Shown here one piece after another: positions 7,551 to 36,289 of a stretch of 38,783 bases of DNA (its first letter is position 1; each line of letters begins with the position of its first letter). The stretch comes from Propionibacteriales bacterium (lineage in GTDB: Bacteria > Actinomycetota > Actinomycetes > Propionibacteriales > Nocardioidaceae). The notes under the pieces are model-generated. The model worked only from the letters and a program-made list of their open reading frames with translations, did no database searches and was not told the origin of the DNA. A program made the translations under genes and the position numbers. Where the stretch lies: the NCBI GenBank assembly GCA_009377795.1, contig WHTJ01000040.1, forward strand, positions 1 through 38,783, written 5' to 3'.

Positions 7551-7934
7551 TCAGGGTGCGGGCTTGCTCAACCAGTCGGCCACTGCGTCGACCACGTCCT
7601 CAGCGTCCGCTACGGCGGCCCTAGCCTCCTCGACACCTACGGCTTCGTGCGTATAGTCGGCCCGATTTCGACGTTCGAGCAAGGTATTCAGCGCGCGACC
7701 ATGATCGCGGTCCAGCCTGCCTTCCAAGACGAGGTATTGACCGAAGGCGGCGACAACTCCAGCATGCCTTGATCGAGATTGGCCCAGCGCCTGCAAGGCG
7801 GCCTCTGCAGCGTAGAACGCGGCGTAGTATGCGCGCGACACTGCCTGAGCGTTGAACCCCAGGTCCAGGAGCGCGCGCACGGCAGCGATCTCCTGACGGG
7901 CATGTTCCAGCTCGGCCGACCCTGGACGCGTCAT
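7551..7934 (-). CDS. HEPN-domain protein, probable toxin partner of the upstream nucleotidyltransferase
   Basis: A 127-residue, all-helical protein. YYAAFYAAEAAL (36-47) is a typical HEPN helix, and residues 91-96 (RADYTH) give the R-x4-H RNase motif. HEPN proteins of this size are usually RNases neutralised by a cognate minimal nucleotidyltransferase. In HepT the tyrosine modified by AMP lies two residues after the His; here residue 98 is Ala and the nearby Tyr94 lies inside the motif, so the modification site, if any, differs. The ATG overlaps the stop of the upstream nucleotidyltransferase gene (ATGA), so the two are translationally coupled. Toxicity is inferred from family and gene pairing. 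Confidence 0.82.
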   Translation of the reverse strand: MTRPGSAELEHARQEIAAVRALLDLGFNAQAVSRAYYAAFYAAEAALQALGQSRSRHAGVVAAFGQYLVLEGRLDRDHGRALNTLLERRNRADYTHEAVGVEEARAAVADAEDVVDAVADWLSKPAP

Positions 7935-8719
7935 GCGACCTTCCTGCCCTCGGCGTGCACCCGCTGTAGAAACGCCGTGTCGGCCCGTTCGTACTCCTCC
8001 TCTGTGAACGGCATAACCGATACCAGGGCTCGGTGCCGCTCAAAGATCCCCCAGAGGGCTTCCCCCATTCTCCGGATCTCCGCAAATGCCGAGTCCATTT
8101 CGGTAAGAACCGCCATGACGTCAACATCGGATTCCTCGTCGGCGGCGCCCCGGGCGTACGAGCCGTACAACAAGACGTCACGCAACCGATCGCCATACAG
8201 TCGCCGCAGCTCGGTTACGGTGTCCTGCAGAACAGCTTCGAGATCAAAGCCTCCCGATAGTTCCCGGAGCTCCGGGTCGGCGAATCGCTGCATCGCCCGC
8301 TGCGCCTGGTCCTCGTCGACCAGCCGCTCGTCGAGCAGCCACTGCACGGCCCTCCGGCTCGCGCGCGCGTCCCGCAGCGCGAACCATGCCTCCCGCAGCT
8401 CCGGGAACTCGAAGAGGGTGTCCTTGAACCGGCGGAACGCTCCACGCCCGGCAATCGCGCGCTCCAGCAGGTCCTGAGCCCGCGGATCGCCTACCCGGGC
8501 GATGAAATCCTGCAGGTCCCGGTAGCCTTCACCGGAGTCGCTGGGATGGATGCGGATCCATCCCAGCTCGTCCGGGTCCGGCCCGTCGTCGGTGTCGTCG
8601 AACTCGCTGCGGCAGTGAACGTCACCGGTGGACGGATCGAGGTACCACCGGTGCTCCCACGAGTGATCGTCCAGGGCGTCCGCGATCTCTCGCAGATCGA
8701 GGGTGTCGAGGTCGAGCAT
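7931..8719 (-). CDS. UPF0158 domain fused to a MNT-type nucleotidyltransferase (candidate antitoxin)
   Basis: A 262-residue two-domain protein. Residues 1 to about 125 resemble UPF0158 (WYLDPSTGDV at 25-34, AIAGRGAFRRFKD at 88-100), a domain of unknown function. Residues about 165-262 are a nucleotidyltransferase of the polymerase-beta/MNT type with GSYARG (186-191) and DVD (198-200). The third acidic position I expect near residue 234 appears to be Ser (VSVMPF), which may reduce or change activity. ATG 8719 has GGAG 8 bases upstream. The HEPN gene overlaps its stop by 4 bases, the usual HEPN-MNT toxin-antitoxin arrangement but with an added N-terminal domain. It lies 34 bases behind the acyltransferase gene on the same strand. 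Confidence 0.8.
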   Translation of the reverse strand: MLDLDTLDLREIADALDDHSWEHRWYLDPSTGDVHCRSEFDDTDDGPDPDELGWIRIHPSDSGEGYRDLQDFIARVGDPRAQDLLERAIAGRGAFRRFKDTLFEFPELREAWFALRDARASRRAVQWLLDERLVDEDQAQRAMQRFADPELRELSGGFDLEAVLQDTVTELRRLYGDRLRDVLLYGSYARGAADEESDVDVMAVLTEMDSAFAEIRRMGEALWGIFERHRALVSVMPFTEEEYERADTAFLQRVHAEGRKVA

Positions 8720-8753: not shown

Positions 8754-9674
8754 CTAGCGCCAGACGTCGGTACGACGGCCCACCCGCGGTGGAGCCGTCT
8801 GCTCCCACACCCGGCGCCACCGCGCGACCTTCGGACCGGACGGATCGGGGATCTCCTTCCGGGCCGCCCGTAGCTGCGCCTGCCACCACGTGGTGCGATC
8901 CTCGTCCAGCAACTGCGACATGGCGGCCACCACGCGCGGGGCGAACTCCCGTGCGGTCTCGCCGTCGCCGGGCGAGAGCGGCGCGCCGTACCGCACCGTC
9001 ACCGGCGGCCGGCCGGGCCGGGGCCAGCTGCGACCCCGCGGCATCGCCGCGAAAGAGCCGCGGATGGCCACCGGCACGATCGGTACGCCGTGCTCGATCG
9101 CCAGCCAGGCGGCGCCCATCCGGAACCGTCCCATCCAGCCGTCGGGTGAACGGGTGCCCTCGGGGAACACGACGACGTTCCACCCCTGCCCCAGCAGGTC
9201 GCCCGGAGTCGACGACAACGAGCCGCCGCGGCGCTCGATCGGGAACGTGTTGAACACGATCGCCGAACCGGTGGCCCGCCACCAGGTGTCGAAGAAGTAG
9301 TCCGCCGCCGCCGCGACCGACGTACGCCGCCGCCACGCGTCCGGCAACGTGCACAGGATCAGCGGCGTGTCCAGATGCGACGCGTGGTTGGCGACGAACA
9401 GCACCGGCGGGGAGACCCGGCCCAGCATGTCGAGGCCGGTGACCCGAGGCGACACCTGCGAGCGCAGCAACGGGTCGAGCCCGACCTCCTGTACGACCTC
9501 ACGCAGCGCGCGGGCCGGGCGCCTTCGCGCCCACTCGGTAGGGAAGACGTATTTTTCCTTCTCTGGAACAAAAGGCTCGGCGTTGCGCGGAACCAGCGGC
9601 CGTCTCCCCCATCGCCATCCGCGCGCGACCATGCGGACGTCGTCGGCCGTCTCCCGCAGGAACCGAGTCATCAT
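8754..9674 (-). CDS. PlsC-type lysophospholipid/glycerolipid acyltransferase
   Basis: A 306-residue acyltransferase of the 1-acylglycerol-3-phosphate family. NHASHLD (His97, Asp102) is the catalytic HX4D motif, and FPEGTRS (about 169-175) binds the phosphate of the acceptor. Residues 1-70 form a charged N-terminal extension not needed in the basic family. The starts GTG 9677, ATG 9674 and ATG 9671 are consecutive; ATG 9674 has the best spacing from AGGGGG. The gene begins 10 bases after the LarA-like gene ends, so they are almost certainly co-transcribed. It may esterify the product of the upstream reductase and dehydrogenase genes; this is inference. Confidence 0.85.
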   Translation of the reverse strand: MMTRFLRETADDVRMVARGWRWGRRPLVPRNAEPFVPEKEKYVFPTEWARRRPARALREVVQEVGLDPLLRSQVSPRVTGLDMLGRVSPPVLFVANHASHLDTPLILCTLPDAWRRRTSVAAAADYFFDTWWRATGSAIVFNTFPIERRGGSLSSTPGDLLGQGWNVVVFPEGTRSPDGWMGRFRMGAAWLAIEHGVPIVPVAIRGSFAAMPRGRSWPRPGRPPVTVRYGAPLSPGDGETAREFAPRVVAAMSQLLDEDRTTWWQAQLRAARKEIPDPSGPKVARWRRVWEQTAPPRVGRRTDVWR

Positions 9675-9684
9675 CACCGGCCCC

Positions 9685-11265
9685 CTAGTGGACGTCCGCG
9701 ATCAGGTGCGGCGGGTTGTGTAAGTAGGTGAGGGACGGCGACCGCCCGACCGTGCCGGAGACCATCTCCAGTGCGTCGCTCAGAGTCGAGGCGGCCCGGA
9801 AACCCATTCGCTGCACGGTGTGCCGGTCCGCGCCGACCCACACCACGTCGCCGACGTGGTCCAGCGCGTGCGCGGCCCAGTACCACATGTAGAACGGGTG
9901 CACGCCGTGATAGGCGTACGACGTCCGGTAGAGATGGATGTACCACGGGTCGGTCGCGTACGACTGCTCGAACTTCTCCTCGATCGCCACCGGGTCGGTC
10001 GTCTCCGCCAGCACCTCCTCGAAGAAGTCGACGTACGACGGGTGATGCAGCTGGGAGAACTCGTTCGGCACCGGGTGGTACAAGATCACTGCGCCGCCCT
10101 GACGCACCAGCGGACATCCGCGGTAGGAGTTGAAGTAGTAACCCAGGCCCATGCAGGTGGCGAGGATCGGGTTCATGACCGAGTTGACGTTATAGGGCCC
10201 GAGATACGGCAGGCCCATCACCAGCACATCGGTCTGCCCTTGAACCTCCACCATCTGCTGCCGGTGCACGTTGGCCAGCGTCTTCGCGTGCACCGCCTCG
10301 GTCTCGCCGGCATGGACCCCGGTCACGCCGTACGGCGACTCCAGCGAGTGGAAGACCCGGCGCTTCACCTTCCGGGGAGCCACGCCGAGCGCGCGGCGCG
10401 CGGCCAGCATCGACGCCTGGTCGCGGATGCTCCACTCCCATTCGCGCTTGTTCAGGAACTCGTACGGCGCCGGGAACACGTCGTTGTTGAGCGTGGTCTC
10501 GATCGTGAAGATGCGCAGATGATCGGCGAGCAGCCGTCCCATCCGGATCGCGGAGTGGTGCAGATGCGACTTCTCCGGATCCATGAACGAGCGGGACTGC
10601 ACCATCGTCTTGCTGTTGTGGTGCGGGCGGAGGCTCTTGTACGACGCGAGGCCGACCGGGACCGACTTGTGGCCGCCATCCATCGCGACCAGGTTGACGT
10701 TGACGTAGACCAGCAGGTCGGACTCGGCCGCCCGCCGGTTGATCTCGACGTCCTCGTTCCGGTCGGTCACACCGACGTGCAGCAGGTCGTCGGGGTCCTC
10801 CGCGTCGTGGTTGTAGAGCAGACCCTGCGGGAAGAACGACCGGAACACCCGCTCGCCGACGATGGCGCGAAGCTCGTCCGGCGTGAGCCGGCGATGCACG
10901 GCGTTGGCCGAGATCAGCGCAACGTCGTCGACACCGGCGGCAGCCGCCATGGTCAGGACCTGCTCGATGACCCGCTGCCTGATGTCTGGTTTTCTCATCG
11001 GCGGAAGGGGAAGCGAGATATCATCGAACGCGATCGTGAGCCGCATTCCGGGCCGCAGCAGCTCCGACAACGGCTCGGACCCCTCCGGGTTCAGCAGCGC
11101 ATGCCGGATCGTGGCGTCGACATCGCGTACCGCCGGCAGGGACTCCGGCGGATAGACCACCCGGGTGCCGATCGGGAATCTCTCCAGCCGGAAACCCTCA
11201 CCCTCGTGCACCACCAGCGGTGGTGTGCGGTCGTCCACCTGGAGCACGAATCCCGGACGGCTCAT
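9685..11265 (-). CDS. LarA-like DUF2088 (lactate racemase domain) protein
   Basis: A 526-residue protein whose N-terminal half resembles the DUF2088/LarA domain. LarA racemises lactate with a nickel-pincer nucleotide bound to a lysine. Segments that line up from memory are AFDDISLPLPPM (79-90), YNHDAEDPDD (151-160) and GGHKSVPVG (197-205), the last with the probable cofactor lysine K200. The Arg of the family DxTRP motif seems replaced (DISLPLP), and the second catalytic His is not where I expect it, so this is a divergent homologue. The cofactor-making genes larB, larC and larE are not in the window. ATG 11265 has AGGAGGAGCAG before it. It lies between the alcohol dehydrogenase and acyltransferase genes. 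Confidence 0.78.
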   Translation of the reverse strand: MSRPGFVLQVDDRTPPLVVHEGEGFRLERFPIGTRVVYPPESLPAVRDVDATIRHALLNPEGSEPLSELLRPGMRLTIAFDDISLPLPPMRKPDIRQRVIEQVLTMAAAAGVDDVALISANAVHRRLTPDELRAIVGERVFRSFFPQGLLYNHDAEDPDDLLHVGVTDRNEDVEINRRAAESDLLVYVNVNLVAMDGGHKSVPVGLASYKSLRPHHNSKTMVQSRSFMDPEKSHLHHSAIRMGRLLADHLRIFTIETTLNNDVFPAPYEFLNKREWEWSIRDQASMLAARRALGVAPRKVKRRVFHSLESPYGVTGVHAGETEAVHAKTLANVHRQQMVEVQGQTDVLVMGLPYLGPYNVNSVMNPILATCMGLGYYFNSYRGCPLVRQGGAVILYHPVPNEFSQLHHPSYVDFFEEVLAETTDPVAIEEKFEQSYATDPWYIHLYRTSYAYHGVHPFYMWYWAAHALDHVGDVVWVGADRHTVQRMGFRAASTLSDALEMVSGTVGRSPSLTYLHNPPHLIADVH

Positions 11266-11290
11266 CTGCTCCTCCTGCGCATCGGCCCCG

Positions 11291-11323
11291 CTTCGCGCCG
11301 AGATTGCACAATCTCGGCGGGAG
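11291..11323. repeat. palindromic intergenic element, copy A
   Basis: A near-perfect palindrome lies in the gap between the alcohol dehydrogenase stop and the LarA-like start. Arms of 11 bases (CGCCGAGATTG, 11296-11306, and its complement at 11309-11319) flank a 2-base centre. The 33-base unit recurs in inverted orientation, with 31 bases inserted between its halves, at 30166-30229. No T-run follows, so it is not an obvious terminator. It may be a mobile palindromic repeat or form an mRNA hairpin between the two genes. Confidence 0.75.
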
Positions 11324-11340
11324 GGTTGATCATCATCTTC

Positions 11341-12546
11341 CTACCTTTCCCCGTGGGGATCGAACGCGACCTTCACCGTACCCAGCCGACCCGACGAGTG
11401 GGCGTGGTCGATCGCCTCCCGCCAGCGGTACAACGGATAGACCGCGCCCACCACTCCGTCGAGCGGCCCGCCCGCGGCCAGCTCCATGGCCAGCTCGAAC
11501 GCGGGCCTCCCGCCGGCGGCGGGCTCCGAGGGAGCCGAGGCGTACGTTCCCACGACGTCCAGCTCACGAAACCACACCGGGGACAGGTCGGCTCCCCCGG
11601 TCGGCATGCCGGACAGCACGACGCGTCCGCCCGCGCGGGTGGCGCGCAGGACGGTGTCCAGCGAGTCCTTGCTGCCGACCGCGTCGATCGCGACGTCGAC
11701 CCCGCCGAGGAGGTACGCCCGCTGGTGGTCGGGAGCCAGCCGGAACGCGCGGGTGGTACGCCGTACACCCCGGAACACCTCGTCCGGACTCACCACCTCG
11801 GTGGCCCCGAACGACCGGGCCAGCTCCCGCTGCCGGGCGTGCTTGGCGACCACCGTGATCCGGCCCGCCGACGTGAGCTCCCGCAACGCCAGCGTCGCGA
11901 AGAGACCCACGGACCCTGCACCGGACACCAGCACCGTCGCGCCGTCCGGGACCGCGGCCCGGAACGCCGTGTGCACGGCACAGGCCAGCGGCTCGGCGAG
12001 CACCGCGCGCTCGTCCGGCAGGTCGTCGGGCACCGGGTACAGCTGGCTCCGATGGGCCATGAGCACCCGGCCCCACCCACCGCCGGTGTCACTGCAGTAG
12101 CCGGTCTGCAGTCCGGGCGAGACATGCCCGACCGTGATCCGATCGCACCGGTTGGTCGCCCCGGCCGCGCAGCTCGCGCACGGCTCGACACCGCGGGCCG
12201 CACAGCTCAGCACCGGATCCAGCACGACCCGCGTGCCGGCGGATAGGTCGTCGCAGTCGTCGAGCAGCTCGCCGACCACCTCGTGGCCGGGCACGAACGG
12301 CATCGACACCAGGGCGGAGAAGTAGAGGCTGGTCGTGCCGGTCACGGCGCCGAGGTCCGACCCGCAGATTCCGGACAGCGTCGGGCGGACCCGGGCCCAC
12401 GACTCGTGCTCGACCCGAGGCTCGTCCCGGTTCACCAGCCGGAGCGGGGCCGCCGGACCGGTGAGAATGCCGGGGATCCGTCCACCCGCGGCCCGGGCGG
12501 CGACATAGCGCGGCAGCGAGCGGTACATCTCGAGAGCGAGCATCAT
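11341..12546 (-). CDS. zinc-dependent alcohol dehydrogenase (MDR superfamily)
   Basis: A 401-residue medium-chain dehydrogenase. Catalytic zinc ligands are in GICGSD (Cys61) and GHEVVGE (His88, Glu89). The four-Cys structural zinc loop is present (Cys115, 123, 126, 134). SGAGSVGLF is the nucleotide-binding turn. The substrate is unknown; context suggests a fatty alcohol/aldehyde or a lipid head group. The ATG overlaps the stop of the upstream reductase/HAD gene (ATGA), with GAGGTGA 8 bases before, so I reject the longer open frame to 12654. A 75-base gap with the palindromic repeat separates it from the LarA-like gene. Confidence 0.88.
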   Translation of the reverse strand: MMLALEMYRSLPRYVAARAAGGRIPGILTGPAAPLRLVNRDEPRVEHESWARVRPTLSGICGSDLGAVTGTTSLYFSALVSMPFVPGHEVVGELLDDCDDLSAGTRVVLDPVLSCAARGVEPCASCAAGATNRCDRITVGHVSPGLQTGYCSDTGGGWGRVLMAHRSQLYPVPDDLPDERAVLAEPLACAVHTAFRAAVPDGATVLVSGAGSVGLFATLALRELTSAGRITVVAKHARQRELARSFGATEVVSPDEVFRGVRRTTRAFRLAPDHQRAYLLGGVDVAIDAVGSKDSLDTVLRATRAGGRVVLSGMPTGGADLSPVWFRELDVVGTYASAPSEPAAGGRPAFELAMELAAGGPLDGVVGAVYPLYRWREAIDHAHSSGRLGTVKVAFDPHGER

Positions 12547-14822
12547 CGCGGCATCACCTCGGCGACGCCCGCCGACGGCAGGTCCAGCCGGGACACGGCG
12601 CCCGGTGAGCTCCAGTCGACGATCTCCCACTGCGAGCGGCGGGCCCGCCGCCACAGGTGCACGTCGGGCGACACCGCGACCGGCTTGCCGACGACCTCGA
12701 GCATAGGCAGGTCGGAGTGGCTGTCGGCGTACGCGTAGGACCGGCCGAGGTCGAACCCGGAGCTCTCGGCGAGATGCCGCAACCAGGCCGCACGGGACTC
12801 ACCGACCAGCGGCGGCGCCGCGAGGAATCCGGTGCAGCGGCCGTCCCGGTCGACCGCGAGGTCCGCGGCGACGATGTCGTCGAACAGCGGGGCCAGCGGC
12901 CTGGTGAGCGGCCGGATCGCACCGGTGATCAGGATCGTCCGGTGGCCGGCCGACCGATGCTGACGTACCCGGCGCAGCGCGGCCGCGGACACCCTCTCCA
13001 GCACATGCGGGGCCAGCGTCTCGTCGACCAGCCGGTCGAGCTCGGCAAGGTCGGCCCCGGCGTACCGCCGGTAGACCGCGCGCAGGAAGCCGCCCCGGTC
13101 CCGGCGCTCGGCCTGGATGTAGCCCGGCAGCCGGCGGAGCAGCCTGCCCACCTCGGCCAGCCGGGCATGACCCTCCAGCTCCGGCAGCCGGGTCCACAGG
13201 TACGTCTCGATGACGTTGGACGAGAGCAGGGTGCCGTCCATGTCGAACGCGGCGACCACGTCGGTCGCCTCGGGCAGGCCATTGCTGCTGCGCTTCGCCG
13301 CGGCGGCGTTTCGTCTCCGGCGTACGACGTCCAGCGAGCGCAGCGGCTCGGTCACCGCCGGAGCATGGACCTCGCCGAGGTAGTGCTCCCAGTCCACGAC
13401 CGCGGTGTCGAAACCGAAGACCTCGCGGTCGTCCGGTTCCAGGGCCCGGTGCAGGCCGATGGTCGCGTCGTCGACGAACTGCAGCTCGGCCTGGGCGTAC
13501 TCGCGGTAGAGGTCGACGTACCGGCGCAGAAACTCCAGCCGGCGCTGCTGCCGGTCGACGTCGCGCGCGATCCGCCGGATCCGTTCGCTGCGCGGCACGT
13601 GGGTGACCAGGTAGTCGGCCGCCTTGTGCGCGCGCTCGCTGGCGACCAGCAGGCGCTCCACCGCCTCACCACCCGGGAACCGCCACGCCGGGAGCCGGAC
13701 CGCGCCGCGCTCGCCCATGTCGAACGGGTACCGGTCGAAGTAGTGCGCGATGATCTCGTACAGCCGGTGGAAGGTCAGCGGGTTGCGCCCGCCGGACGTG
13801 ACGTGGAAGTAGCGCGGCTCGCCGGGCTCGGGACGGCCGGCCAGCACCGCGACCAGCGCCCCGACCACGTGGTCGACCGGGACCACGTCGACCACCGAGT
13901 CGGGTGCGGCCGGGAACTCCGGCAGCTCACCACGACCGAACGCGAGGATCAGCGGCTCGGCCATCTTGAAGCCCTCGATCCACCCCGGATGCGGCGTCTC
14001 CAGGGCCGACTCGATGATGCTCGGACGCACGATGGAGACCGGCCGCCCGGCGCCGAGTTCCTCGACTACCCGCTCGCCGAGCGCCTTGGTGAAGGTGTAG
14101 ACGTCGGTCCATCCGAGACTGCGGGCCCGCTCGCCTCCGGCCTTGACCAGCTGCTCGTTCACCCACTCCCGTCGCCGGCGCTCGGCGTCGGCGGCGGCGG
14201 TGATGAAGCCGGCGCGGCCGTGTTGCCGCTCGGCCTGCCTGCGGACTCGGGCGAGCCGGCCGGGCGTACGGGACTGTTCCTCGGCCCGGGCACGCATCCG
14301 CCGTCCCCACTCCGCCTCGGCCCGCCAGTCCACGTCGTGCTCACAGGATCGCTCCGGGATGGCACCTCGCCGCCGGCCGGCGACGTACGCGGTCGACACA
14401 TGGATGTAGTGCGCGTCGCTCCCGGACTCGCCGAGCCGCTCGAGCAGTCGGCGGGTGCCGAGCACGTTGGTCGCGAACGCCTCGTCGATCGGCGGATCGA
14501 ACGACACGTCGCCCGCGCAATGCACGGCGACGTCGAGATCCGCGGGCAGTGGTGGTATGTCGGCCAGATCGCCCTCGATGACCTCGACCCTAGAGTCGAG
14601 CACGTCGTCGACGTCGTCGTTCACGATGTCGGAGAAGATCGGCTTGCGGAGCAGCTGGGCGACGCGGTCTCGCCCTGTTTGTGACCCTTTGCGGCGTACC
14701 AGTGCGACCACGGTCGTGCCCGGCAGGTCCCGCAGGATGCGATGCAGCAGCGCCTCGCCGACGAATCCGGTGACACCGGTGAGCAGCACCCGCCTGCCGT
14801 CGAGCCGCTCCCGAAGCCGCAC
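12543..14822 (-). CDS. fatty acyl-CoA reductase-like SDR fused to HAD-IB phosphatase
   Basis: A 759-residue fusion. Residues about 11-330 are an extended SDR/NAD-binding-4 reductase: GVTGFVG (16-22) binds NAD(P), EGDLAD (83-88) is typical of the family, and Tyr242/Lys246 (YTFTK) form the YxxxK catalytic pair. An Arg/Glu-rich insertion fills 160-235. Residues about 340-510 are a helical linker resembling the C-terminal region of fatty acyl reductases. Residues 521-745 are a HAD-IB hydrolase: DMDGT (Asp527, Asp529), ITGA (Thr633), GESR and DSHSD (Asp700, Asp704). The first half likely reduces an acyl thioester, the second removes or transfers a phosphate. GTG 14822 has AGGAGG 6 bases before, so I reject 14906. 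First gene of the block running to 7551. Confidence 0.83.
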   Translation of the reverse strand: MRLRERLDGRRVLLTGVTGFVGEALLHRILRDLPGTTVVALVRRKGSQTGRDRVAQLLRKPIFSDIVNDDVDDVLDSRVEVIEGDLADIPPLPADLDVAVHCAGDVSFDPPIDEAFATNVLGTRRLLERLGESGSDAHYIHVSTAYVAGRRRGAIPERSCEHDVDWRAEAEWGRRMRARAEEQSRTPGRLARVRRQAERQHGRAGFITAAADAERRRREWVNEQLVKAGGERARSLGWTDVYTFTKALGERVVEELGAGRPVSIVRPSIIESALETPHPGWIEGFKMAEPLILAFGRGELPEFPAAPDSVVDVVPVDHVVGALVAVLAGRPEPGEPRYFHVTSGGRNPLTFHRLYEIIAHYFDRYPFDMGERGAVRLPAWRFPGGEAVERLLVASERAHKAADYLVTHVPRSERIRRIARDVDRQQRRLEFLRRYVDLYREYAQAELQFVDDATIGLHRALEPDDREVFGFDTAVVDWEHYLGEVHAPAVTEPLRSLDVVRRRRNAAAAKRSSNGLPEATDVVAAFDMDGTLLSSNVIETYLWTRLPELEGHARLAEVGRLLRRLPGYIQAERRDRGGFLRAVYRRYAGADLAELDRLVDETLAPHVLERVSAAALRRVRQHRSAGHRTILITGAIRPLTRPLAPLFDDIVAADLAVDRDGRCTGFLAAPPLVGESRAAWLRHLAESSGFDLGRSYAYADSHSDLPMLEVVGKPVAVSPDVHLWRRARRSQWEIVDWSSPGAVSRLDLPSAGVAEVMPR

Positions 14823-14971: not shown

Positions 14972-15958
14972 ATGAGGGCCGTTCAGATCGTCGAGCTCAC
15001 CGGACCGGAGACGGCCCTGCGGATGGCCGACGTCGGCGAACCCGAGCCTGCGCACCGGCTCACGCCCGGCCAGGGAGTCGTCATCGACGTGCACGCCGCG
15101 GGCGTGTCCTTTCCCGAGGTGCTCCAGACCCGCGGCCAGTACCAGCTGAAGCCGGAGACGCCATTCGTCCCCGGCAGCGAGGTGGCCGGGGTGGTGCGAT
15201 CCGCGCCCGACGGCGCGCGCGTGCGGCCGGGCGACCGAGTCGCCGCGATGTGCCAGCTGGGTGGTTTCGCCGAGGTCGCGGTGGCCCCGGAGTACCTCAC
15301 CTGCCCGCTCCCGGAGCGGCTCGACTTCGCGCAGGGCGCGGGCCTGATCCTCAACTACCACACGGCGTACTTCGCGCTGCAGATGCGCGGACGCCTGCGC
15401 GAGGACGAGACCGTGCTGGTGCATGGCGCGGCGGGCGGCGTCGGCACCGCGGCGTTGCAGGTGGCGAAGGGCCTCGGCGCCCGCAGCATCGCGGTGGTGT
15501 CCAGCGCCGAGAAGGAGCGGATCGCCCGAGACGCGGGCGCCGACGAGGCGGTCCGCTCGGACGGCCCGTGGAAGGACGAGGCCCGGGAGATCTCCGGCGG
15601 CGGGGTGGACGTCGTCGTCGACCCGGTCGGAGGCGACCGGTTCACCGACAGCCTGCGCGCGCTGCGGGAGAACGGCCGCCTGGTCGTGGTCGGGTTCACC
15701 GGCGGGTCGATCCCGGAGGTCCGGGTCAACCGGCTCCTGCTGAACAACACCGAGGTCGTGGGCGCGGGCTGGGGTGCGTACGCGACGACGAAACCCGACT
15801 TCAACCGGGAGGTCGCAGCCGCGCTCAACCAGCTGATCGAGGCCGGTTACGTACGGCCGATCATCGGCGCGCGGTTCCCGCTCGAACAGGCAGCCGACGC
15901 ACTCCGGTTGCTCGACGAACGCCGAGCAACCGGAAAGGTCGTGCTAGAGCTTCGCTGA
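14972..15958 (+). CDS. NADPH:quinone oxidoreductase, zinc-free MDR (zeta-crystallin type)
   Basis: A 328-residue oxidoreductase. The cofactor site reads HGAAGGVGTAALQVAK (about residues 151-166), followed by the usual PVGG (about 220). No zinc-binding Cys/His set is seen, which puts it in the quinone reductase/zeta-crystallin branch. FVPGSEVAG is the conserved N-terminal motif of the group. It reduces quinones or enoyl substrates with NADPH. GAGGAG precedes ATG 14972 at good spacing. It is divergent from the reductase/HAD gene, with 149 bases between starts, and convergent with the Bax-inhibitor-like gene. Confidence 0.88.
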   Translation: MRAVQIVELTGPETALRMADVGEPEPAHRLTPGQGVVIDVHAAGVSFPEVLQTRGQYQLKPETPFVPGSEVAGVVRSAPDGARVRPGDRVAAMCQLGGFAEVAVAPEYLTCPLPERLDFAQGAGLILNYHTAYFALQMRGRLREDETVLVHGAAGGVGTAALQVAKGLGARSIAVVSSAEKERIARDAGADEAVRSDGPWKDEAREISGGGVDVVVDPVGGDRFTDSLRALRENGRLVVVGFTGGSIPEVRVNRLLLNNTEVVGAGWGAYATTKPDFNREVAAALNQLIEAGYVRPIIGARFPLEQAADALRLLDERRATGKVVLELR

Positions 15959-15967
15959 GCCCGCGGG

Positions 15968-16813
15968 CTACTCCCCGCGCAGGATCGCCAGGATGCGGAG
16001 CAGGTTGATGTAGATCCACACCATCGTCACCGTGAGCCCGAAGGCGGCCCGCCAGGACTCGACCTCGGGGAGCCCGGCCTCGATGCCCCGCTCGACGAAG
16101 TCGAAGTCGAGCACCAGCATCAGCACGCCGATCACGAGGCCCGCGCATGCGGTGAGCAGACCGAGAGTACCGAAGCCACCGAAGCCGATCTCGGCGCCGA
16201 AGAGGCTGAGGGCGAACTCGAACAACATCAAGCCGACGAAGCCGAACATCGAGATCACGACGACCTTGCGGAACTTCGGCGAGACCGTGATGTTGAAGAA
16301 CTTGTACGCCGCCAGCGTCGCGGCGAACGCGACGAAGGTGCCGAAGACCGCCTGCATGACGACGCCAGGCCACATGGTCTCGAAGACCATGCTCATCGCG
16401 CCGACGAACACGCCCTCCACGGCCGCGAACACCGCCACCAGCGCCGGGCTGATCACGCGCTTGAAGGACAGCACCAAGGACAGGCCGAGGCCGCCGAACG
16501 CGCCGGCCATCCACGCCGTTATCGCCGGCTGGATCTCCCTGGTCGGGTCGGGCAGCAGGATCCAGGTCACCGCGGCAGCGGCGACCAAGATGACCATCGT
16601 GAGCCCGGTCTTCTGCACGACCGAGTCGATGGTCATCCGCTCCCGGACGTCGACCGGGCCGCCGGTCTGCCACGTGGACGGATCGCTGTGGCCAGGCTCG
16701 GCGTACCCCTGGCTGGGTCCGGCGCCCGGGTAGGTCGGGTAGCCGCCGGGCTGCGCCGGCGCACGGCCGTTGAAGCCGCCGCTGCGTTGGAAGATCGGGT
16801 TGCTGCTCTGCAT
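15968..16813 (-). CDS. Bax inhibitor-1/YccA-family membrane protein
   Basis: A 281-residue protein with a Gly/Pro/Gln-rich cytoplasmic N-terminus (1-60), then seven hydrophobic segments up to residue 278. The pattern matches the BI-1/YccA-like group common in actinobacteria. In other bacteria members act as pH-sensitive ion leak channels or protease modulators; the role here is unknown. ATG 16813 has GGAGGAGACAC before it. It lies next to the tRNA gene on the same strand and is convergent with the quinone oxidoreductase. Confidence 0.85.
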   Translation of the reverse strand: MQSSNPIFQRSGGFNGRAPAQPGGYPTYPGAGPSQGYAEPGHSDPSTWQTGGPVDVRERMTIDSVVQKTGLTMVILVAAAAVTWILLPDPTREIQPAITAWMAGAFGGLGLSLVLSFKRVISPALVAVFAAVEGVFVGAMSMVFETMWPGVVMQAVFGTFVAFAATLAAYKFFNITVSPKFRKVVVISMFGFVGLMLFEFALSLFGAEIGFGGFGTLGLLTACAGLVIGVLMLVLDFDFVERGIEAGLPEVESWRAAFGLTVTMVWIYINLLRILAILRGE

Positions 16814-16899
16814 GTGTCTCCTCCGGTGACACCCCGTAATGAGGCCTGAGTCGATACTACATACCAGCGGGCACGATCACGGTGGCCCGGCAGTGTCCG

Positions 16900-16973
16900 T
16901 GCCCCCGGTGGGACTCGAACCCACACTGACCGCTGTTTAAGAGCGGCGACTCTGCCGATTGGTCTACGGGGGC
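16900..16973 (-). tRNA. class I tRNA with UAA anticodon (identity uncertain)
   Basis: Read on the minus strand this gives a full cloverleaf: acceptor GCCCCCG/CGGGGGC with discriminator A, D-stem GAC/GTC with an 11-base loop, anticodon stem CCGCT/AGCGG with loop CTTAAAC, 5-base variable loop TCAGT, and T-arm GTGGG-TTCGAGT-CCCAC. The anticodon is TAA, which would read the Leu codon UUA, but tRNA-Leu needs a long variable arm and this one is only 5 bases. The acceptor stem resembles actinobacterial tRNA-Arg. The 3' CCA is not encoded. Aminoacyl identity cannot be settled from the sequence. Confidence 0.8.
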
Positions 16974-36184: not shown

Positions 36185-36217
36185 GGTCTTCTCCTCGGCG
36201 TCTTCGCGGACGTCACG

Positions 36218-36289
36218 CTCCCCCGCCTGGCTTCGATCCAGGACTTCGGGCTTCAAAGGCCCACGGGCTGCCAATTACCCCACGGGGGA
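36218..36289 (-). tRNA. tRNA-Gln (anticodon TTG)
   Basis: Acceptor TCCCCCG/CGGGGGA with discriminator G, D-arm GGG-TAATTGGCAG-CCC, anticodon arm TGGGC-CTTTGAA-GCCCG and T-arm CCTGG-ATCGAAG-CCAGG. The anticodon TTG reads CAA/CAG. The T-loop begins with A instead of the usual T at position 54. CCA is not encoded. It lies 33 bases upstream of glmU on the same strand, the usual place in actinobacteria. Confidence 0.9.

Follow-up and report, generated by a model that had tools for sequence, protein, structure and literature searches.

The 38,783-nucleotide contig WHTJ01000040.1 of a Propionibacteriales bacterium from the family Nocardioidaceae (assembly GCA_009377795.1), referred to below as the window, carries a block of four genes on the minus strand at positions 8754-14822. 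In the order of transcription, they encode a fatty acyl-CoA reductase fused to a HAD-type phosphatase (FAR-HAD), a zinc-dependent alcohol dehydrogenase (ADH), a LarA homologue (LarAH) and a PlsC-type acyltransferase. This block is an operon conserved in distant actinobacterial lineages. A role in lipid metabolism is likely; as to the product, we tentatively propose, rating the chances at slightly below even, a glycerolipid with a fatty-alcohol-derived chain, most likely a 1-O-alkyl (ether) glycerolipid. The features of the block are as follows:

14822-12543, minus strand: FAR-HAD fusion, with the fatty acyl-CoA reductase domain NAD_binding_4 at residues 14-322 and a HAD-IB phosphatase domain at residues 524-709.
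12546-11341, minus strand: zinc-dependent medium-chain ADH of the polyol/ketose type, with the domains ADH_N and ADH_zinc_N.
11296-11319, strandless: inverted repeat with perfect 10-bp arms and a 4-nt loop, within the gap between the ADH and LarAH genes.
11265-9685, minus strand: LarAH, a LarA homologue of the LarAH14/15/16 type and a predicted nickel-pincer nucleotide (NPN) protein, with the Lar_N domain and residues His124, Lys200 and His216.
9677-8754, minus strand: PlsC-type glycerolipid acyltransferase, with the Acyltransferase domain and intact HX4D and PEG motifs.

A first-pass annotation of the window had described four same-strand genes with a 4-base overlap of the first two, and this is what we find, the stop codon of FAR-HAD and the start codon of the ADH gene sharing the bases ATGA (12543-12546). 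The distance of 10 bases given there for the last two genes applies if translation of PlsC starts from the in-frame ATG at 9674, and shrinks to 7 bases with the GTG start at 9677. The gap between the ADH and LarAH genes is 75 bases long.

A lack of co-occurrence of the four families in other genomes had been set beforehand as a refutation of the first-pass interpretation; it was not observed, since wherever the block occurs its genes stay together in constant order. When each species was represented by one genome, a scan yielded at least 560 stretches (of 586 candidates) encoding LarA-like relatives; the 80 best loci were retained (the named loci). All four genes occur in the same order and on the same strand in 71 of these 80; in eight of the other nine the missing gene lies beyond the contig end, and one (L069) has no PlsC gene despite the 1.6 kb remaining. 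The named loci span Nocardioides, Kribbella, Actinopolymorpha, Frankia, Actinomadura and Phytohabitans, as well as metagenome-assembled genomes (MAGs) of Nitriliruptorales and Acidimicrobiales and two MAGs labeled Acidobacteria. LarAH is the best-conserved member of the block, its identity amounting to 63-66% in the thirteen loci whose FAR-HAD has the lowest similarity (38-42%). The possibility of a chance neighbourhood is ruled out by the conserved gene order.

The families also co-occur at the level of whole genomes. Among 296 sampled genomes of Actinomycetota, surveyed with cut-offs of E 1e-40 for LarAH, 1e-35 for FAR-HAD and 1e-20 for LarC, LarAH was found in 92 and FAR-HAD in 79, and 77 possessed both (Fisher p 7e-53, with the species treated as independent, although they are kin). 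FAR-HAD occurs without LarAH in G121 and G315. The 15 LarA-only genomes, except G333 (66% complete), contain a distant kind of LarA with 39-46% identity, which is also the only kind present in G097, counted among the 77. At the locus of one LarA-only genome (L190, 5908-7467) this distant LarA keeps the NPN residues; the same kind of LarA, without FAR-HAD, occurs in 13 further LarA-only genomes. In the 76 genomes where both genes could be placed by coordinate, they share one contig in 71, always on the same strand, and lie on separate contigs in 5.

LarAH matches the NCBIfam family NF052592 (LarAH14/15/16) over residues 6-525 of 526 with 913.1 bits (cut-off 740). In the profile alignment, Asp72, His108, Lys184 and His200 of LarA correspond to Asp82, His124, Lys200 and His216 of LarAH, respectively, while the cofactor-contacting Arg75 is replaced by Leu85 and the second catalytic histidine, His174, by Val190 or Asn191; by these two losses the protein falls outside the two-histidine LarA racemases. 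Lys200, His216 and His124 are each retained in 117 of 119 aligned homologues, and the site of the second histidine is occupied by Ile, Val or Leu at position 190 and mostly by Asn or Thr at position 191. The AlphaFold model (38 sequences, mean pLDDT 94) is structurally closest to 9q3k (Z 40.6 over 452 residues, root-mean-square deviation 2.4) and then to 9q3j (Z 37.2), other LarA and malate racemase structures matching at Z of about 28-31. Since Lys200, His216 and His124 are kept while His174 and Arg75 are lost, LarAH should, as judged from its residues, bind NPN and take up hydride with the help of one base, and should not racemize by the known two-base route.

This expectation agrees with the literature. 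Groups 14 and 15 of the LarA homologues are described as lacking His174 (PMC12611868), and for the LarAH14 of Frankia none of seven hydroxy-acid isomerizations was detected (PMC7583248). The name LarAH15 is also borne by a gluconate 2-epimerase of Phytophthora (PMC11770544), which may differ from group 15 of the NCBIfam name. Groups 12, 13 and 16 were treated separately by Desguin et al. (2020; PMC7583248), as they lack the NPN residues; an NPN-free mode of action was rejected for the LarAH of the window, as it keeps Lys200 and His216 and its genome encodes LarB, LarC and LarE. According to the main text of the same paper, its Table S1 gives the COGs found near each LarAH group and may already show the neighbourhood discussed here.

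The supply of the cofactor can be traced in the genome and near the block in its relatives. The genes of LarB (269 bits) and LarC (426 bits) adjoin each other on contig C109, and LarE (290.8 bits) is encoded on C70. In 21 of the 80 named loci, the fetched flank, which extended up to 10 kb per side and often less, encodes LarB, LarC or LarE, or more than one of them. When the flanking open reading frames (ORFs) of the 80 loci were compared all against all, with the four block genes and ORFs overlapping them set aside and part of the smaller families identified, LarE (19 loci) and LarC (17 loci) were the commonest identified extra families. The NPN genes lie 3' of PlsC in Actinomadura and 5' of FAR-HAD in Actinoallomurus and Haloactinopolyspora, and because of this difference in position between lineages the linkage has probably evolved repeatedly. 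LarC is present in 82 of the 92 LarA-positive genomes, as compared with 193 of 296 overall.

The reductase domain (NAD_binding_4, 174 bits) has the fatty acyl-CoA reductase 7eoz as its best solved match, possesses the nucleotide motif and Tyr-x3-Lys, and keeps Ser143, Tyr242 and Lys246 in all 110 aligned homologues; a C-terminal Sterile domain scores 33.5 bits, which is under the Pfam cut-off of 35.4. The HAD domain matches TIGR01490 with 107.4 bits (cut-off 98.3) and has the DxDGT and DSxxD motifs, its Asp527, Asp700 and Asp704 being invariant in 110 homologues and its second aspartate, Asp529, being replaced by glutamate in 44 of them. In the ADH, Cys61, His88 and Glu89 are present in 110/110 homologues and the cysteines of the structural zinc in 105/110; L-idonate dehydrogenase, ketose reductase and galactitol-1-phosphate dehydrogenase are among its closest solved relatives. 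Their substrates are polyols, ketoses or, in one case, a sugar-alcohol phosphate, so that a ketone located close to a phosphate ester would suit the ADH. PlsC has a single solved match, 5kym, itself a PlsC, and its His98, Asp103, Pro172, Glu173 and Gly174 (HX4D and FPEG motifs) are retained in all 97 aligned homologues.

A variant of the block occurs in the Rubrobacter family. In all 12 loci fetched from this family a gene for PlsY directly precedes FAR-HAD, none of the 12 gave a PlsC match, and PlsY gave no match in the 108 remaining loci (E 1e-8); Pfam PF02660 confirmed PlsY in two of the twelve proteins. Two genomes of the family are those of R. radiotolerans and R. indicoceani, since 8-kb stretches of their small contigs match named plasmids at 100%; among the twelve loci, R. 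radiotolerans is represented by L170, the other eleven being assigned to Rubrobacter by the family label. Some loci of this family have inserts between the ADH and LarAH genes, namely a protoglobin gene (L152, 10678-11265) and a gene for a MOSC protein (L156, 7448-8119). That PlsC and PlsY replace one another would be easiest to understand if the block acted on an acylated glycerol phosphate.

Rubrobacter is also of interest for its lipids. The abstract of a paper on the lipids of Rubrobacterales reportedly refers to a putative operon responsible for 1-O-alkyl glycerol phosphate; R. radiotolerans is said to be among the five species studied; by its title, the paper describes these bacteria as dominated by mixed ether/ester lipids. 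We searched for the two usual bacterial ether enzymes, the flavin-dependent AGPS and the proteins with the DUF2229 domain, which we take to be that of Ger/PlsA. R. radiotolerans has two PF02913 proteins, of which one is glycolate-oxidase-like (277 bits versus 105 for AGPS) and the other scores 137 bits to a glycolate-oxidase-like protein versus 74 to an AGPS-like protein. In total, 34 of the 48 PF02913 matches in 14 genomes were classified, the other 14 being left out; no AGPS-like protein was found in the block genomes G110, G068, G098 and G028, in which all matches (2, 3, 3 and 1, respectively) were classified. DUF2229 is present in none of the 14 block genomes. The FAR-HAD query gave one match per Rubrobacter-family genome (E 1e-35), the gene of G241 being split over two contigs; no search was aimed at ElbD, the multidomain reductase of Myxococcus. 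As neither of the usual enzymes was found in the Rubrobacter genomes examined, the block is a good candidate for the ether-lipid synthesis of these bacteria.

In the scheme that follows, we infer the product and all the substrates, as well as the sequence of reactions, from these observations. PlsC, or PlsY in Rubrobacter, would acylate glycerol 3-phosphate or its lyso form, and the reductase domain would convert acyl-CoA to a fatty alcohol. LarAH with NPN could take hydride from a carbinol carbon of the glycerol part, and the ADH could reduce or oxidize the same C2 carbon in a ketone of the alkyl- or acyl-dihydroxyacetone phosphate (DHAP) type. The HAD domain would remove phosphate. Ether operons of Myxococcus combine a FAR-like protein and an acyltransferase either with AGPS or, in the elb operon, with HAD and SDR proteins and a protein of unknown function (PMC9131029). 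If our scheme is laid over that of Myxococcus, the HAD domain would correspond to ElbB and the ADH to the SDR reductase, which by elimination would put LarAH in the position of AGPS. That LarAH itself forms the ether bond, as an NPN-dependent replacement of AGPS, is a quite unlikely extension of our proposal. In such a case the enzyme would borrow hydride from C2 of 1-acyl-glycerol 3-phosphate, giving enzyme-bound acyl-DHAP with an exchangeable C1 ester; the alcohol made by the reductase would displace the fatty acid, and the hydride would return to the same face. The residues fit this possibility, because hydride borrowing with retained configuration needs one histidine.

Several observations speak against our proposal. 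The HAD reaction cannot be placed firmly in our scheme. The LarAH proteins of L163 (4837-6366) and L164 (5526-7037), loci from a second family within the order of the Rubrobacter family, have lost Lys200, His216 and His124, and the ADH gene is gone there, while FAR-HAD and PlsC stay; since the ADH and the NPN site went missing together, these loci hint that the ADH and LarAH may act on one redox step. L162 lacks the ADH although its NPN residues are kept. FAR-HAD stands alone in L191 (genome G037), the other three genes being absent from the 12 kb fetched, which fits the scheme poorly. Ten of the 92 LarA-positive genomes have no LarC match at E 1e-20, among them G163, G319 and G350, which are 95-98% complete. 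The genome of the window encodes an unlinked AGPS-like FAD protein on contig C53 (L229, 454-2067), with 327 bits to the AGPS 2uuu versus 121 to the next-best enzyme, so that the ether bond could be formed outside the block. DUF2229 matches 4 of the 14 known control genomes, namely those of Thermotoga maritima, the Ger of which is named in PMC11150832, and also of Lactococcus, Thermus and Deinobacterium; because of the last three, the domain is no specific indicator of ether lipids. The likeness to the elb operon concerns gene classes only, as the effect of the elbB (HAD) insertion was ascribed to polarity and the reductase activity of ElbD was reported as not seen in vitro (PMC9131029). Moreover, no reported ether lipids are known to us for Kribbella, Frankia and Actinomadura.

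The first-pass annotation had suggested an unusual lipid containing a fatty alcohol or a hydroxy acid. Its lipid part is strengthened by the exchange of PlsC and PlsY and by the match of the reductase to 7eoz. In the hydroxy-acid version, LarAH would set the stereochemistry of a 2-hydroxyacyl chain, the reductase domain would reduce it to a 1,2-diol, and PlsC would acylate the latter. The characterized enzymes of the LarA superfamily do use 2-hydroxy acids (PMC7583248, PMC11770544), and the Phytophthora epimerase is such an example with a LarAH15 name, if of uncertain group identity (PMC11770544); however, the absence of both His174 and Arg75, the inactivity of Frankia LarAH14 on seven hydroxy acids (PMC7583248), the lack of a fatty-acid hydroxylase among the identified flanking families and the PlsY of Rubrobacter, which points to glycerol 3-phosphate, make this version rather unlikely. 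The earlier interpretation is thus partly supported: its general lines hold, and its hydroxy-acid branch is the less likely part. The ether bond might instead be made elsewhere by an AGPS-like or other enzyme, with the reductase supplying the alcohol and LarAH and the ADH making or recycling a polar head group or a glycerate-type unit. AGPS-like genes are indeed present in G046, G039 and G049 in addition to the genome of the window; they were not found in the four fully classified block genomes named above, and LarAH accompanies FAR-HAD in 77 of 79 genomes, so that we regard this arrangement as improbable.

As for the operon being devoted to neutral lipids, with the alcohol going into wax esters, HAD and PlsC forming diacylglycerol and LarAH in an unrelated redox role, the reductase, HAD and PlsC would fit and so would the solitary FAR-HAD in the 12 kb of G037, but the linkage of LarAH and the ADH would find no explanation, and we consider it very unlikely. 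Finally, LarAH could invert C2 of glycerol phosphate from sn-3 to sn-1, producing archaea-like stereochemistry. LarA enzymes are known to invert carbinol carbons via hydride transfer (PMC7583248), and it was suggested that one-histidine LarAs could be one-way racemases (PMC12611868); yet the known inversion takes two bases, and with His124 alone remaining such an activity has hardly any chance of being the correct one. The synthesis of an ether glycerolipid remains the reading that we prefer. In this case the block would join two questions, how ether lipids arise in aerobic actinobacteria such as Rubrobacter and which function the single-histidine LarA proteins have; the NPN cofactor would gain a role beyond hydroxy-acid racemization, and a genomic marker would become available for a lipid class serving as an environmental biomarker. 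Were LarAH the ether synthase, bacteria would possess a novel way of making ether lipids without a flavin.

The palindrome in the ADH-LarAH gap, CGCCGAGATT-GTGC-AATCTCGGCG at 11296-11319, which the first-pass annotation had pointed out, is genuine: when the 75-base gap was subjected to 2000 mononucleotide shuffles, arms of at least 10 bases arose twice. No T run follows it, and any stem of at least 8 pairs was found in only 3 of 27 relatives (180 bases before LarAH), with different sequences. A conserved operator or terminator is ruled out by this non-conservation and the missing T run, and, as the relatives examined do not share the palindrome, we assign no role to it. TetR-family regulators are recurrent near the block in some lineages; such a gene adjoins the block in L182 (10393-11019; Pfam was run on L182 only) and in eight loci of the same cluster, and is divergent from FAR-HAD in 8 of the 9. 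In the window, 34 bases past the end of PlsC, a nucleotidyltransferase ORF (7931-8719) is overlapped by an ORF with a HEPN domain (7551-7934), both on the minus strand, and the two (7551-8719) look like an MNT-HEPN toxin-antitoxin pair. Upstream of the block lie a divergent gene of a zinc-binding dehydrogenase (14975-15958, plus strand) and a Bax-inhibitor-1-like gene (15968-16813, minus strand). The genes of tRNA-Leu(taa) (16899-16973) and tRNA-Gln(ttg) (36217-36289) are both on the minus strand.

The first-pass statement that no described pathway with this combination of genes is known needs some qualification, since the LarAH family is present in NCBIfam and a FAR-like protein, an acyltransferase and a HAD protein occur together in the elb operon (PMC9131029). 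In the collection of papers searched, lactate racemase and ether lipids were not found together, and a search on lactate racemase and acyltransferase turned up one paper, on iron regulation in C. difficile; among the matches listed by a broader search, none contained a nickel-pincer or DUF2088 term. With the LarAH14/15/16 family, LarAH of the window shares the full-length match and the missing His174; the family name refers to a hydroxyacid isomerase, whereas here the member is part of an operon of the lipid type, NPN genes being located nearby in other genomes. The nearest fold is that of the single-histidine LarA_Sp and LarA_Bw (9q3k and 9q3j; PMC12611868), which have one catalytic histidine and the NPN lysine in common with LarAH, but are only 22-24% identical to it and are described as having an invariant Asn at the second-histidine site and glycolysis genes as neighbours.

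Ger/PlsA, the ester-to-ether reductases, make bacterial alkyl or vinyl ethers (PMC11150832, PMC11868695), and their presumed domain is missing from all the block genomes searched. In the AGPS pathway, known from animals and from the MXAN_1676 operon, a FAR and an acyltransferase, both of which are also encoded in the block, stand beside the ether enzyme; unlike that pathway, the block has no FAD_binding/AGPS-type gene among its four, and none was found in the three fully classified Rubrobacter-family genomes. The Myxococcus elb operon (ElbB, ElbD, ElbE; PMC9131029) shares with the block a FAR-like domain, an acyltransferase and a HAD phosphohydrolase. In contrast to FAR-HAD, which has the NAD_binding_4 and HAD regions only, ElbD has a FAR-ACS-ACP-acyltransferase architecture, and the neighbours of the elb genes are SDR proteins, with no LarA mentioned in the available text, whereas the block combines its reductase with a zinc-dependent ADH and LarAH.

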